The position numbers were made by a program, and so were the translations under genes. Below are positions 8,802 through 40,193 of a DNA stretch of 64,000 nt, in pieces (position 1 is the first letter of the stretch; each line of letters starts with the position of its first letter). A model generated the notes under the pieces. The model was not told where the DNA came from, made no database searches, and saw nothing but the letters and a program-made list of their open reading frames with translations. Source of the stretch: Labia minor (lineage: Eukaryota; Arthropoda; Insecta; Dermaptera; Spongiphoridae); contig OY720349.1 in the NCBI GenBank assembly GCA_963082975.1, forward strand, positions 61,502,501-61,566,500, read 5' to 3'.

Positions 8802-9694
8802 AAGGGTGTTTCTTTTAGAGATATAGAACTTTAAATTGTGCAATAAAACAACGAGGGATTATTCAATTGACATGAATTTTATTTATACGAAAGATAATCT
8901 TGTGGCATTACATTTTATATATGATTTCTGGCATATGACCGCCACTGCTGGCTCGGATGTAGTCCAATCTGGACTTCCAATTTTCGATAACTTTTTCCAA
9001 CATTTGTGGCCGTATATCGGCAATAACACGGCGAATGTTGCCTTCTAAATGGTCAAGCGTTTGTGGCTTATCCTCATAGACCAATGACTTTACATAGCCC
9101 CACAGAAAGTAGTCTAGCGGTGTTAAATCACAAGATCTTGGAGGCCAATTCACAGGTCCAAAACGTGAAATTAGGCGGTCACCAAACGTGTCTTTCAATA
9201 AATCGATTGTGGCACGAGCTGTGTGACATGTTGCGCCGTCTTGTTGGAACCACAGCTCCTGGACATCATGGTTGTTCAATTCAGGAATGAAAAAGTTAGT
9301 AATCATGGCTCTCTACTCTTTCGGGTCTTCCTCAATGCTACGTTCTACAGAAGCAATAGCTTCTTCTGTACGCACCGTACGGCGTCTCTGGGGATGCGAG
9401 TTATCAATAAGAGTAAAAGTGGTGCGAAAACGTTCCATGGTTAATCGAATTAACTGCTCTGATGGACGATTTTGTCGACGATAAAATGGATGTAGTGCAC
9501 GATGCGTATTCCGCACAGAACCATTATTTTCGAAATAAAATTGCATTATTTGCAAGCGTTGTTCAGGCGTGAGTCTATTCATGATGAATTGCCAAACCAA
9601 ACTGAGAATAAATCACTTGACAGCTGTTAAATCGGTGGTCAACTTGAACAGTAATGCCAACTTACAGTTCTAAACCTCGAAAAAAACCACCCTT
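8802..9694 (-). mobile_element. DD41D-type Tc1/mariner element, internally deleted copy 1
   Basis: An 893-bp element flanked by TA (8800-8801 and 9695-9696). Inverted repeats start AAGGGTG and continue for about 37 bp through a TATAGAACTTTAAATTG-type block. The minus strand holds both ends of a transposase, separated by a deletion of roughly the middle third. Spacing between the second aspartate (QQDGATCH) and the third (PLDYFLW) is 41 residues, which places it with DD41D elements. The same deletion junction occurs in copy 2 at 16443-17218, so this is an amplified non-autonomous derivative rather than independent decay. Confidence 0.9.
8908..9600 (-). pseudogene. DD41D transposase, central part deleted
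   Basis: The N-terminal piece (9600-9313, 95 aa) opens at an ATG and contains the helix-turn-helix region: LTPEQRLQIMQFYFENNGSV, then ALHPFYRRQNRPSEQ, then the linker HPQRRRTVRT. It ends in a stop right after the deletion. The C-terminal piece (9306-8908, 132 aa) contains QQDGATCHTA, the GPVNWPPRSCDLTPLDY motif with the third aspartate, and the C-terminus VIENWKSRLDYIRASSGGHM. The first catalytic aspartate and its flanks are missing and the halves are in different frames. No active transposase can be made, though the DNA-binding piece remains open. Confidence 0.9.
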
Positions 9695-32708: not shown

Positions 32709-33780
32709 TTGGGCTGGGGAATAAGTTGGTGCGTTTTTTTTTCAAAGAGCTTTATTTAAACAAAGAACAATAATTATAACAGTAAATTAATCAAATATGT
32801 ATTTGATGTTACTGTTTTCCACCTCCTCCCACCTCTCGACCAATTTGTTGATGCTATACCGCCAAAAATTACCTGGCCAGGTGTCGAAGAAGTTGGTGAG
32901 CCAGTTTTTGAGGTCCTCTTCGCCGTCGAAGGTAACACCTCTCATTTGATTGGACATGGAGCTGGAAAGGTGATAATCGGTTAGCACAAGATCCGAAGAG
33001 CACGGTGGAACCTCCCGTTCGAGCTTTTGAAGTGCGGTTTTGACGACTTGTGCAATGGCGTTGTCTTGTAACAAGATGACTTGGTCTTGTCGATCGGGTC
33101 TTTTCGATCGCATAGCCTCATTTACGCGGCATAGTTGGACGATGTAGAGCTCCTTGTTGACCGTGTCGTTCTTTCCAAGCATTTTCCAGTGCAATTATGC
33201 CTTCCCAGTCCCACCAAACTCAGATAATGGCCTTTTTCGAGTGGAGATTTTGCTTGAGTCTCGACTTCGGTGTGTCTCCAGGGGCCACCCACTCTTTTCT
33301 TTGCTGCATATGGACGTACAGACATCAATTCGGTACAAAAAGCGCTGCTTATGATCGCGTGTTGTTCGATGGCGTATGAGGTGTTGAACAGCAATTTGAA
33401 GCGATTTCTTTTTTGATTTCATTAAGCTCGTGAGACACCCAGGGTCCAAGTTTTTCGCTAAATCCCACTGAATAAAGATGAAATTGAGGATCGTCTTATG
33501 ATCGCAGTTCTTTTTTTCGGTCAATTCACGACTTTTTCCCTTCACAAACACCATGAGATGCTCTTCATCGAATTCTGCAGGTCATCCGATGCGAGGTTAA
33601 AATCGCAGTTTTTGAACTTGGCAAACCATTTTTGAGCTGCGCGTTCTCTTTTGACACCTTCTCCACACAAGTTGCATATGTCACGAGCGGCTTTAACTGC
33701 TTTTGACAAGTTTAAGGACAATCTTTCCCAACATTTCACCACTAATTTTGGGTTCTGCATTTTTTTCTTCCATTAAATCC
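32709..33780 (-). mobile_element. mariner (DD34D-type) element, decayed
   Basis: The left end, after TA, is TTGGGCTGGGGAATAAGTTG, matching mariner terminal repeats. The minus strand carries a nearly full-length but broken transposase. The right terminal repeat was not found beyond the transposase start near 33773, so the element appears truncated there. Confidence 0.7.
32787..33773 (-). pseudogene. mariner transposase, frameshifted
   Basis: The start region MEEKNAEPKISGEMLGK is followed by a frameshift into the helix-turn-helix part (AARDICNLCGEGVKRERAAQ, then KWFAKFKNCDF). Next come HLMVFVKGKSRELTEKK and the stretch around FLYRIDVCTSICSKEK, where the VTGDE-type first catalytic motif is destroyed. 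The last piece (33194-32787) has LHWK-like MHWKMLGKND, a shortened LLQDNAIAQ region with the second aspartate and SSDLVLTDYHL with the third, and ends FWRYSINKLVERWEEVENSN. At least three frame changes make it non-functional. Confidence 0.85.
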
Positions 33781-36150: not shown

Positions 36151-36157
<7 letters not shown>

Positions 36158-36388
36158 GGTATTACTTAATAAAATAAATACTTAACAAACAAAATTAACA
36201 ATCTTTAATCGTAAATAAACATAAACATAAATCGTCCGTTATATTCATCTGCAAACATAAGAATGGACCGCAACATAAAACAACCACCGGTCGCAAGTAT
36301 CGTAACATAGAGGTCGCTTACATAGCCTTCACACAGCGCCCTCACTTAACTTAAACTTTAAATGACATAATTTAAATTATTTCCTACA
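36151..36388 (-). repeat. 3' LTR
   Basis: Identical by eye to 38864-39101. Its inner boundary (36388) is followed on the plus strand by GTTTCGGCCTTCCTG, the complement of the presumed polypurine region. Confidence 0.93.
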
Positions 36389-36567
36389 GTTTCGGCCTTC
36401 CTGACATCAATCGACCTCGATTGTTTATTAATCACTTAAAATAAAAGTTTAACAAATAAAAACATTATAATACTTATTACTTTAGATTCACAATTCATAC
36501 ACAATTCATTACAATATCACTTTTTTTCTATTATTTACTTAATTAGATGAATTACAAATCATGGAAA

Positions 36568-38799
36568 TCATTGAAGAAGTTCACGCTCTGACAAGTTCAC
36601 TTCAGAATTAATATTTCCAGGCAACCAAGGCCTGATTCTAGAAACATCATAAGTTCCCTTAAAAGGGAATCGCGAATGCTGAAATCCCTGTATGTCTCTC
36701 AATATGTACCTATCATTTGGTAAAACGGTTTCCTTAATTGTATCTTCTTTAAATTTTTTCTTTTTCTTTTTCACTTGAATAATATCATTTTGTAATTGTT
36801 TGTCGAGTTTAATTAAATTATTATATTGTTCATTTAGCTTGTCACTATTTACTTTCAATTTATCATAAATTTTATTTAAAGATTGAGTTTCTTTCATTAT
36901 TTTGTTTTTACCATCTTGTAATTCTTTTAATTTTTCTAAAATAATTTCATTTTCTTTTTTTAAAATATTTATTGACTCTTCTAATTCTTCAATGGTATTT
37001 TTATTAATAAATAAATATTTTTGAAATAATACATTTTTCATCATAATAATTTCATTTTCTACACATTTTTTGGAATTAAAATTTTTCGATAAGCAATCTA
37101 ATTTAGTTTTATATTGAGCGGACATACCAGGATTTACGACATAATTTAAATCATTACCTTCGAATAAATCTTGATCTATTAATAATAATTCAGCTACTGA
37201 GGTGGACTCGTCAGTGTTCCCTTCTTCTATTTTTTTAGATATTTTCAATTGGCCATTAAATTCTACTTTCACTCCTGGAGAAAATATAAAGTTTCTTCCT
37301 AAAAGCAAATCATGACTCATAGTGTGATCTGGAACTACATGAAACAGAATTGAGAACAATTGATTATTTATATAACATTTAGTTTCAAAAATACATAAAA
37401 TTTTCAATGTCGAAGAATTAATTCCAATAAATTTTTTTGAATCTAAATATGGTTTTCTTAATGAACTAGGCACCAAATAAGATTTGATGATATTAATAGG
37501 GCTACCCGTATCAATCATTCCATTTGCTTTTACCGAACTTGAGCCATTTTCGTAAATAAGTTTAGTTTCCACGTCGCAATCGGTTTTGGTATCCACTAAA
37601 TACGTAGATGAAGGTGTAGATGTTGAAGATTTGTTTTCTTCCCTCCTATACATTGGTTTCGATGGACAGTTTTGGCTTATGTGTCCCATAACTCCGCATG
37701 TAAAACATGAACCAGGGGCCCTTTTAGACTTCCAGCATTGAGAGACAAGGTGTCCAATTTTATTGCAATTAAAACATCTCTTCTCCGCACTTTGAATGTT
37801 AACTGTTTTAATGGCACTGGGTGGATACTTTTTCTCGGGCTCATACTTCTTTGTTGTTTTTCGCTCCGAGTCTAATATTTCTTGGTAAATATTTAATTTT
37901 TCTTTAAATTCTCGGATATCTTTCGCTCCATAAAGAATAATTTTATTTGCCTTGGTGTCGGGAATACCCTCAATTATATATTGCATGAGGGATTTATTAT
38001 CAATATTACCCTTCTCTGCAATTTCCTTCATAATAATAAAATATTCCCGCACTGTTTCTTCCTTTCTCATGGTTCTTAAATTTAATTGTTTATGAATATC
38101 AGCAGGACTTACTTGTTTTTTGAATTCTTGAAGCAAGATTTCTTTCATAATCTTCCAAGAATTTATCTGCTTTTCAGAATTAATAAACCTTTTAGCAAGG
38201 CCCTCTAATTTCTTTTTTGCATAAACTTGCTTTTGCAAATCAGACCAATTAAATAAAATGGCATTTTCCTCAAAATCTCGAATAAATTTTTCTATCGAGT
38301 AATCATTGGTGCCATTGAAAGGAGATATGGTATCCTCTATGTCTCTAAAATTGAAAGAAAAATTATTATTATAACTCTGAAAACTAACCTCCGATGCCGT
38401 TTCGTGATATTGTGTTCTTTCCATTTCAGATTCATAATAATTTTGTTGATTAACATTTTCATTTTTATTTTCCCTCAGTTCTTCTATATTATCAAAATTC
38501 ACCAAAGCAGACTGGATTCGAGTTGCCAGTTCTAGAGAGGTTCCATCTGTTTCGAGGGTTAATAAATAAGCACATGCTTTCAATTTTTCTTCAGAAAAAG
38601 AGGAAGCCATTTTTCCAACTGCCGTAATAAAGGTCTCCGAATCTTCTTCAATATCGTTGAATCCTTCAAATTTTAATATTTTCTTGCGGTTGAGTCTTGA
38701 ATCGGATCCAAACACAATATTATTCAACACGTGCACTTCTTCTCTAGAAGCATCAAAAATCCTTTGTTTAATTCCAGGAAATGCTTCAAGCGTTGCCAT
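36568..38799 (-). CDS. Gag-retropepsin polyprotein with coiled coil replacing Pol core
   Basis: An intact 743-codon ORF from the first ATG (38799) downstream of the 5' LTR. Residues about 155-310 are a Ty3-type Gag capsid domain (FNGTNDYSIEKFIRDFEENA; IIEGIPDTKANKIILYGAKD). Two CCHC zinc knuckles follow: C342, C345, H350, C355 and C365, C368, H373, C378. A retropepsin spans roughly 410-520, with catalytic DTGSP at 430-434 and HDLLLGR at 496-502. Residues 525-575 look like the start of the protease-RT linker. A lysine/glutamate-rich coiled coil then covers about 575-688, where reverse transcriptase, RNase H and integrase core would be. Residues 692-726 (LPNDRYILRDIQGFQ, YDVSRIRPWL) match the C-terminal tail of Ty3-type Pol. 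The product could assemble and process particles but not copy or integrate DNA. Confidence 0.92.
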   Translation of the reverse strand: MATLEAFPGIKQRIFDASREEVHVLNNIVFGSDSRLNRKKILKFEGFNDIEEDSETFITAVGKMASSFSEEKLKACAYLLTLETDGTSLELATRIQSALVNFDNIEELRENKNENVNQQNYYESEMERTQYHETASEVSFQSYNNNFSFNFRDIEDTISPFNGTNDYSIEKFIRDFEENAILFNWSDLQKQVYAKKKLEGLAKRFINSEKQINSWKIMKEILLQEFKKQVSPADIHKQLNLRTMRKEETVREYFIIMKEIAEKGNIDNKSLMQYIIEGIPDTKANKIILYGAKDIREFKEKLNIYQEILDSERKTTKKYEPEKKYPPSAIKTVNIQSAEKRCFNCNKIGHLVSQCWKSKRAPGSCFTCGVMGHISQNCPSKPMYRREENKSSTSTPSSTYLVDTKTDCDVETKLIYENGSSSVKANGMIDTGSPINIIKSYLVPSSLRKPYLDSKKFIGINSSTLKILCIFETKCYINNQLFSILFHVVPDHTMSHDLLLGRNFIFSPGVKVEFNGQLKISKKIEEGNTDESTSVAELLLIDQDLFEGNDLNYVVNPGMSAQYKTKLDCLSKNFNSKKCVENEIIMMKNVLFQKYLFINKNTIEELEESINILKKENEIILEKLKELQDGKNKIMKETQSLNKIYDKLKVNSDKLNEQYNNLIKLDKQLQNDIIQVKKKKKKFKEDTIKETVLPNDRYILRDIQGFQHSRFPFKGTYDVSRIRPWLPGNINSEVNLSERELLQ

Positions 38800-38863
38800 A
38801 ATAAATTGAAATATTCAATATTCTTAATTCGTAAAAAATTGTTCTCACCCCACACCTGAGATA

Positions 38864-39098
38864 ATTATAGGGTATTACTTAATAAAATAAATACTTAACA
38901 AACAAAATTAACAATCTTTAATCGTAAATAAACATAAACATAAATCGTCCGTTATATTCATCTGCAAACATAAGAATGGACCGCAACATAAAACAACCAC
39001 CGGTCGCAAGTATCGTAACATAGAGGTCGCTTACATAGCCTTCACACAGCGCCCTCACTTAACTTAAACTTTAAATGACATAATTTAAATTATTTCCT

Positions 39099-39101
<3 letters not shown>
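38864..39101 (-). promoter_or_regulatory. 5' LTR, presumed promoter
   Basis: The copy upstream of the ORF on the minus strand; by analogy with LTR elements it should hold the promoter and transcript start. It lies 65 bp from the ORF ATG. No individual promoter motif is assigned. Confidence 0.85.
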
Positions 39102-39710: not shown

Positions 39711-40193
39711 ATCTATCTATCTCTGTGGCTCTACGGAACTCGGAAGTTCTTGGCCGCAGCAACCACACTTCTCCAAGTATTCCTATTCTGAGCGACAACC
39801 CTCCAATCCCCAACCTCTCCCGTCTCTATCACGTCCCTTCCCACATTATCCACCCCCCCGCGTCCTTGGTCTTCCAAGCGGACGTTTCCCAATCGGTCTC
39901 CCCACCAATATATTTTTCGCCATTCTTTCCTCTCCCATTCTAACCACGTGCCCTACCCATCGCAGCCTTCTCGATTTTATAATTCTAACTAAATCTGGAG
40001 ATGCATAGATGTCATGCAATTCCTCGTTATGCAGTCTCCGCCATTCCCCGGTGACTTCATTTTTCTTTGGCTTATAAATGCTGCGAAGAATCCAATTCTT
40101 AAATACTCTAAATCTACTCTCGTCTCCTAAGATCTTAGACCATGCCTCAAACCCATACAATACAACTGGCAAAATAATTGTTTTATATAACAT
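39711..40193 (-). pseudogene. RTE-type LINE 3' end with (TCTA)n tail
   Basis: The minus strand encodes the C-terminal region of an RTE-clade reverse transcriptase: LPVVLYGFEAWS, RFRVFKNWILRSIY, GEWRRLHNEELHDIYASPDL, KSRRLRWVGHVVRMGEERMA, GRPIGKRPLGRPRTR. After one frameshift near 39850 it ends GDWRVVAQNRNTWRSVVAAA-KNFRVP at the stop codon (39733-39731). A (TCTA)n tail at 39711-39724 marks the LINE 3' end. The 5' end is truncated near 40193, as usual for LINE insertions. Dead as an enzyme, but one of the better preserved RTE copies here. Confidence 0.85.

Follow-up and report, generated by a model that had tools for sequence, protein, structure and literature searches.

A host SMC4 fragment in place of the Pol enzymes in a multicopy, non-autonomous Ty3 element of the earwig Labia minor

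How can a retrotransposon that encodes no polymerase keep one reading frame open through the place where its enzymes should stand, and what occupies that place? The question is raised by a long terminal repeat (LTR) element at 36153-39101 on the minus strand of a 64,000-nucleotide stretch of the Labia minor genome (assembly GCA_963082975.1, contig OY720349.1, positions 61,502,501 to 61,566,500), hereafter the window. A sequence-only reading had described it as a recent element with Gag, protease, a coiled coil and a Pol-like tail, in which a single in-frame replacement had removed the enzymes. We found that the place of reverse transcriptase (RT), ribonuclease H (RNase H) and integrase has been taken by a coil captured from the host gene for the condensin subunit SMC4, and that the element is very probably a helper-dependent, pol-deleted Ty3 element that transduced this gene and tolerates the coil as a spacer. 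Its features are as follows, from its 5′ to its 3′ end after the whole element, where omega denotes the nonsynonymous-to-synonymous ratio.

36153..39101, minus strand: whole element, 2949 bp, in an (AT)n run, with a 4-bp duplication ATAT flanking both ends
38866..39101, minus strand: 5′ LTR, 236 bp, TGTAGG...CCTATA, same sequence as the 3′ LTR
38800..38865, minus strand: short leader, with an opening block common by eye to the autonomous relatives L032 and L033
36568..38799, minus strand: single open reading frame (ORF) of 743 aa, Gag, CCHC twice, protease, SMC4 coil and integrase tail
37789..38799, minus strand: Gag, residues 1-337, omega 0.31 (Pfam and hand-set domain borders)
37600..37788, minus strand: pair of zinc knuckles of the CCHC type, residues 338-400, omega 0.50 (Pfam and motif)
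37240..37599, minus strand: aspartyl protease with DTGSP, residues 401-520, omega 0.29 (Pfam and motif)
37060..37239, minus strand: remnant of the protease-RT linker, residues 521-580 (alignments of relatives)
36728..37059, minus strand: captured SMC4 fragment, 332 bp, residues 581-690 plus two bases, from the N-terminal coiled-coil arm
36571..36727, minus strand: tail corresponding to the C-terminus of a Ty3 integrase, roughly residues 692-743, omega 0.47
36389..36567, minus strand: 3′ non-coding region, at whose end a polypurine-like tract adjoins the LTR
36153..36388, minus strand: 3′ LTR, 236 bp (alignment of the LTR pair and duplications in other copies)

The origin of the coil was determined by searching it against the earwig genome. 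All 42 candidates were scored and 33 matches were obtained, one of them in a 1265-aa open frame on contig C1 and 32 elsewhere. The frame on C1 (C1:44217074-44220868; 1265 codons, no stop) encodes SMC4: over residues 1-623 it aligns with SMC4 chains of solved structure (best E=1.5e-122, 9f5w chain B), Pfam SMC_N is found on it at 3.5e-26, and as a whole it matches many SMC4-named proteins (Periplaneta americana, 44%) and is 79% identical over 1255 aa to P0029, an unnamed SMC4 protein; motifs that we take to be the N- and C-terminal ATPase motifs were recognised in it by eye. The host frame is uninterrupted and seemingly lacks introns in that part. Element and gene are 97.59% identical in DNA across 332 bp, with sense and frame agreeing with SMC4, and past either junction no likeness between the two is visible; across 29 element copies the identity to the host segment ranges from 96.1 to 98.5%. 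The transfer ran from gene to element, because the P0029 match continues through the captured segment and P0029 shares the host state at three of the five near-fixed differences, the other two being uninformative. Thirty of the 32 non-donor coil matches lie inside ORF matches or element copies, and the remaining two, which have same-strand element pieces at distances of 2.2 and 4.6 kb, are probably split element copies. The insert was therefore traced to a donor gene and is fused in frame to Gag in an element that has lost its enzymes, as in host-gene transduction.

The captured segment is a regular coiled coil, as the sequence-only reading had recognised, although its origin in SMC4 had been missed. 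In the best register, every one of the 11 heptads across residues 601-678 has a hydrophobic residue at d, and the 3.5-residue periodicity was reached by 0 of 5000 shuffles. AlphaFold2 run without an alignment predicted one helix at residues 577-690, with pLDDT 89-98 at residues 601-680 and 61-77 at the helix ends (mean 66 for the whole fragment). The ORF itself is not an SMC4, since the ATPase head and the hinge are absent and 110 residues of one arm are carried. A derivation of the coil from integrase was considered and rejected: the first BLAST comparison had aligned it with the helper integrase C-terminus (148 residues, 36%), but composition correction or low-complexity filtering left just the tail and a few flanking lysines, and SMC4 was then found. 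In other species, none of 3691 candidates scored against region 575-743 reached E<=0.001, whereas the whole ORF matched at least 28 proteins at E<=0.001, the top one 36% identical (best 7997 candidates scored).

The remainder of the element identifies it as a derivative of the Ty3/Gypsy group. Within the uninterrupted 743-codon ORF, Pfam zf-CCHC was found above its cut-off (E=3e-9), while the Retrotrans_gag match (2.8e-4, 21.5 bits against a cut-off of 24.1) and the RVP protease match (0.011, 16.4 bits against 20.7) were weak and fell below theirs; the two knuckles and the DTGSP motif described from sequence are thus present, and the polymerase-less state was borne out by Pfam, which gave no RT, RNase H or integrase core at E<=1. 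Paired LTRs, a short integrase-type target-site duplication and a Gag with CCHC knuckles and an aspartyl protease are Ty3/Gypsy traits, but the order RT, RNase H, integrase is missing, and the element is therefore a non-autonomous derivative rather than a full member. Across 50 residues the tail shares 68% identity with the C-terminal end of the integrase of L033, an element of this genome whose Gag-Pol has 1430 aa (E=6e-23 with four sequences compared), so that the earlier description of the tail as the end of a Ty3 Pol held, as did the in-frame replacement of the enzymes, the ORF being open through the SMC4 segment. The LTR copies are identical over 238 of 238 positions (36151-36388 and 38864-39101), but the length of 238 bp given before needs correction to 236 bp, because the target-site duplications of other copies set the ends of the element at 36153 and 39101; the exact position of the window copy's own ATAT duplication is ambiguous within the AT repeat. 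The opening block of the leader probably holds the putative primer-binding site, and the final ~120 nt of the 3′ non-coding region are 91% identical to L033 and L034.

The coil junction is not confined to the window copy, since it occurs in the 32 places besides the donor. An ORF search of the 604 Mb in 71 contigs gave 65 matches, with the best 60 of 1043 candidates scored. At least 18 loci (L001-L018, including the window copy) span residues 1-743 without a stop at 97-100% identity; L023 is open too, with about 33 linker residues missing in frame, and further copies have frameshifts, stops, truncations or an insertion. Perfect 4-bp target-site duplications flank all 18 open full-length copies (13 are ATAT, 5 other), and the LTR pairs are identical in 14 of the 18. 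Among L001-L030, two LTRs were present in the DNA examined for 25 copies, 23 of which have matching duplications. Insertion sites are scattered and mostly AT-rich. The perfect duplications and identical LTR pairs demonstrate a young family inserted by integrase, and the open copies differ among themselves (synonymous divergence pS 0.039).

Several defective copies were inspected individually. L023 and L041 lack about the same stretch of the protease-RT linker, as though a version without it had been transmitted. L025, L027 and L030 carry a frameshift at the identical place in Gag, which was considered as proof that broken copies travel; these three are 97.0-97.5% alike and L025 is 97.6% identical to the window copy, and since they are no closer to one another than to the window copy, repeated slippage is as likely. 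L026, reported with an open frame of 967 aa, was rejected as a half-deleted intermediate, because it consists of two separate open pieces with other DNA between them in the protease region.

Selection was assayed on a tree relating the 18 ORFs that are open, against a null derived from the observed mutation spectrum with stop-creating changes excluded; taking open copies alone favours a low omega in principle, which the exclusion of stop-creating changes from the null offsets in part. Strong constraint was found on Gag (omega 0.31, 65 of 141 changes nonsynonymous, p=4e-12) and on the protease (0.29, 19 of 42, p=7e-5), with values of 0.50 for the CCHC knuckles (16 of 26, p=0.067), 0.47 for the integrase tail (18 of 32, p=0.029) and 0.83 for the linker (23 of 33, p=0.37). 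Gag, knuckles and protease pooled gave omega 0.32 (p=6.8e-16), so that the purifying selection on Gag and protease suggested by the sequence-only reading is confirmed. In the SMC4 coil constraint was not detected (omega 0.70, 28 of 41 nonsynonymous, p=0.19), in a sample small enough to leave room for weak selection. Rougher borders (coil 588-683, tail 684-743) gave 0.71 for the coil and 0.49 for the tail, and the exact borders were preferred. Retention of the tail as a cis-acting signal was rejected, since per-site nucleotide change is higher in the tail (0.201) than in Gag (0.139), giving no sign of constraint at the nucleotide level. By the pattern of omega, a working Gag-protease has been required, while the sequence of the coil detectably has not.

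An element of this kind would need enzymes from elsewhere, and a plausible supplier of RT and integrase, judged from its sequence, is an autonomous family in the same genome. Among the ORF candidates scored, the nearest matches outside the family were 53-54% identical (about 50% over longer alignments) and covered residues 8-583 only, followed by one partial match at 49% and others at 40% and below. Three of these relatives, L032, L033 and L034, encode Gag-Pol ORFs of 1422-1430 aa; they are 98.8-99.9% alike, and within each the two LTRs match at 100%. Pfam found RT, RNase H and integrase in L034, and xxDD-type RT motifs and H2C2 and DDE-type integrase motifs are present in all three; with the best 150 of 1318 RT candidates scored, three RT copies stand at 99-100% and the next at 70%. 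Their LTRs are 75-79% identical to those of the element over positions 36-238, and by eye the first 19 nt are exactly shared, as are 14 of the last 15. The match is thus far closer at the ends on which RT and integrase act than in Gag, a pattern to be expected if the enzymes of this family serve the element. Travel on a relative's enzymes, as proposed before, would accordingly be the simplest explanation, with a candidate helper that has matched ends.

Other lineages of the genome have also lost Pol enzymes. L031 (G000:C9:58931000-58940900) belongs to a second pol-gutted lineage, with one open frame of 902 aa and the integrase tail kept; compared with autonomous L033, its Gag-protease is 99.1% identical over 562 aa and its pol scraps 73-82%, a contrast that points either to recombination having renewed Gag-protease or to tighter constraint on it. 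L036 and L042, relatives of the autonomous L037, form a third lineage, which carries RNase H without RT in open frames of 875 and 922 aa, and L042 also holds an integrase scrap by Pfam; here the contrast with L037 is weak (96-97% against 88-97%). The integrase tail ends the open ORF in L031 and L042, as in the window element, whereas L036 stops before it. All three siblings resemble the window element in keeping a Gag-protease ORF open across a pol deletion, but what is left of pol in each aligns with that sibling's autonomous relative (except the last 14 residues of L036), and a host fragment was not seen in them. Further matches similar to L036 and L042, at 38-39%, show open frames of 768-928 aa.

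Taken together, the following course of events is very probable. RT, RNase H and the integrase core disappeared from a Ty3-type element, and their place was filled by 332 bp of SMC4, in frame at both junctions, probably because reverse transcription switched templates twice, onto and off an SMC4 mRNA packaged alongside; template switching onto packaged host RNA is a described capture route (PMC13317346). The element has since multiplied, probably with a helper, itself supplying Gag and protease together with the end, leader and polypurine signals, and obtaining RT and integrase in trans; the related autonomous family is their likeliest source. As for the coil, the element most likely just tolerates it as an in-frame spacer; were it to have a role, holding protease domains together instead of RT and integrase would be the best candidate. 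Established by the sequences are the SMC4 origin, the anatomy, purifying selection on Gag-protease, the multiplication and insertion of the integrase type, whereas helper, particle step and route of capture are inferences.

Four points weigh against this account. The broken-ORF copies L019-L022 and L025 also show LTR pairs without mismatch, so that an intact ORF may not be strictly required in cis. The donor lacks an intron in the segment, which makes capture at the RNA level indistinguishable from joining at the DNA level. Gag is just 50-54% identical to that of the supposed helper, and co-assembly of both Gag types is assumed. Finally, the case is built on genome sequence rather than on transcripts, particles or present movement.

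The family might instead be driven by an autonomous parent with the same Gag, outside the assembly or in other individuals, the 50-54% relatives being irrelevant; we consider this doubtful. In its favour, the open copies are young by their LTRs yet mutually diverged, so that some source kept working, and no closer autonomous element appeared among the best 60 ORF candidates. Indeed, a parent sharing the element's Gag, which the sequence-only reading had anticipated, was not found in the assembly among these candidates, where a 50-54% relative was the nearest. Against it, the same candidates are blank between the element's own copies (>=89%) and the 53-54% relatives. Moreover, six unpaired LTRs were present among 40 scored LTR matches (best 40 of 198 candidates), and they were rejected as hidden autonomous copies: by eye, five are bracketed by direct repeats, are free of element DNA in their 100-bp flanks and look like solo LTRs, while the sixth, L047, has no clear flanking repeat by eye.

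A tentative alternative to the tolerated spacer is that the coil is active and selected, the arm oligomerising in place of the dimer contacts of RT and integrase so that the protease is switched on in particles. The regular 11-heptad coil directly behind the protease would fit this, and so would the near-fixed F-to-I change since capture, which falls at a d position, and the remaining d positions, which are invariant in amino acid across 29 copies (gapped codons set aside). Two HIV-1 papers offer precedents, reporting that a leucine zipper downstream of protease raises Gag cleavage (PMC3291649) and proposing RT-RT contact as a driver of protease activation (PMC11998509); yet the zipper also gave premature cleavage and a reduced particle yield (PMC3291649). 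The substitution pattern argues the other way: coil omega is not below 1, and the coil is relatively richer in nonsynonymous change than Gag, knuckles and protease (Fisher p=0.018). All five near-fixed differences from the host change an amino acid, and of the 38 other variants 29 are nonsynonymous, close to the null expectation of 0.755. Changes in the heptad core (a/d) were 3 of 24 against 25% expected, which is not significant (p=0.12), and the inner branches, with one synonymous and five nonsynonymous changes in the coil, held too few for use. The N-terminal arm of SMC4 natively pairs with its C-terminal arm, so that homodimers are not assured. Roles for the coil in assembly, partner recruitment or interference, as suggested earlier, are so far unsupported, its amino-acid changes not being detectably constrained. 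The bolder claim, that the stolen arm works as an oligomerising substitute for RT and integrase in a helper-dependent parasite outnumbering its enzyme-bearing relatives, is unlikely; the numbers compared are the 32 coil-bearing places and the three RT-bearing copies among the RT candidates scored.

It is more improbable still that the coil acts on the host, by binding the SMC4 C-terminal arm (condensin) or chromatin or by tethering particles or integration complexes to chromosomes, or that element piRNAs strike SMC4 mRNA. The 332 bp at 97.6% in sense orientation to a chromosome-structure gene would suit such a conflict, and condensin II is reported to restrict human LINE-1 (PMC5656329). However, just one arm is carried, the coil shows no detected constraint, and the proposal draws on sequence likeness. 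That the copies form a family of domesticated host genes is hardly credible, for although Gag-protease is under purifying selection, identical LTR pairs and duplications occur at scattered, mostly AT-rich sites and many copies are broken.

The spacer-bearing, helper-dependent element, our preferred reading, was compared with known systems. Acutely transforming retroviruses of vertebrates are gag-onc fusions that have lost pol, and Gag-host fusion is the textbook origin of retroviral oncogenes. The earwig element resembles them in having host coding sequence in frame behind Gag, a pol deletion, intact ends and a probable dependence on a helper, but it is an insect Ty3 element, multicopy, with the protease kept and an integrase tail behind the host part, which is a structural coil rather than a growth-control gene. 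TR-GAG elements of plants are non-autonomous LTR elements in which Gag is the only coding domain between the LTRs; Gag is retained, pol is gone and mobilisation is in trans, as the earwig element would have it, but protease, host fragment and integrase tail are also encoded here, which places the element outside the TR-GAG definition. Maize Bs1 is likewise an LTR element bearing host gene segments (PMC13317346), from three genes in a plant, whereas here there is one in-frame segment with a known donor locus and the coil in 32 non-donor places. LTR elements of bdelloid rotifers are animal elements with a captured extra ORF3 (PMC5408684), which is separate and accompanies gag and pol. The element may best be read as the counterpart, among insect Ty3 elements, of gag-onc retroviruses and of Bs1. 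In the open-licence papers found, host gene pieces captured by LTR retrotransposons were reported from plants; a search of this literature showed no Ty3 element of invertebrates in which a host fragment follows Gag-protease, or which bears an SMC fragment, and no open-licence paper on SMC4 captured by an LTR retrotransposon was met, judged by titles and abstract openings.

Because a single assembly contains the donor gene and its captured product, the junctions on either side, numerous young descendants and a candidate helper, the capture becomes open to direct study, and it can be asked how in-frame capture occurs and whether the captured fragment gets selected. It may also be asked whether a vital gene becomes exposed to small-RNA silencing when a transposon carries part of it. 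The two further Gag-protease lineages without enzymes make selection for Gag-protease retention in defective elements testable.

Elsewhere in the window, ORF remnants at 8908-9306 and 32787-33554 resemble mariner-type transposases by eye, and one at 39846-40193 resembles the end of a non-LTR reverse transcriptase, also by eye.

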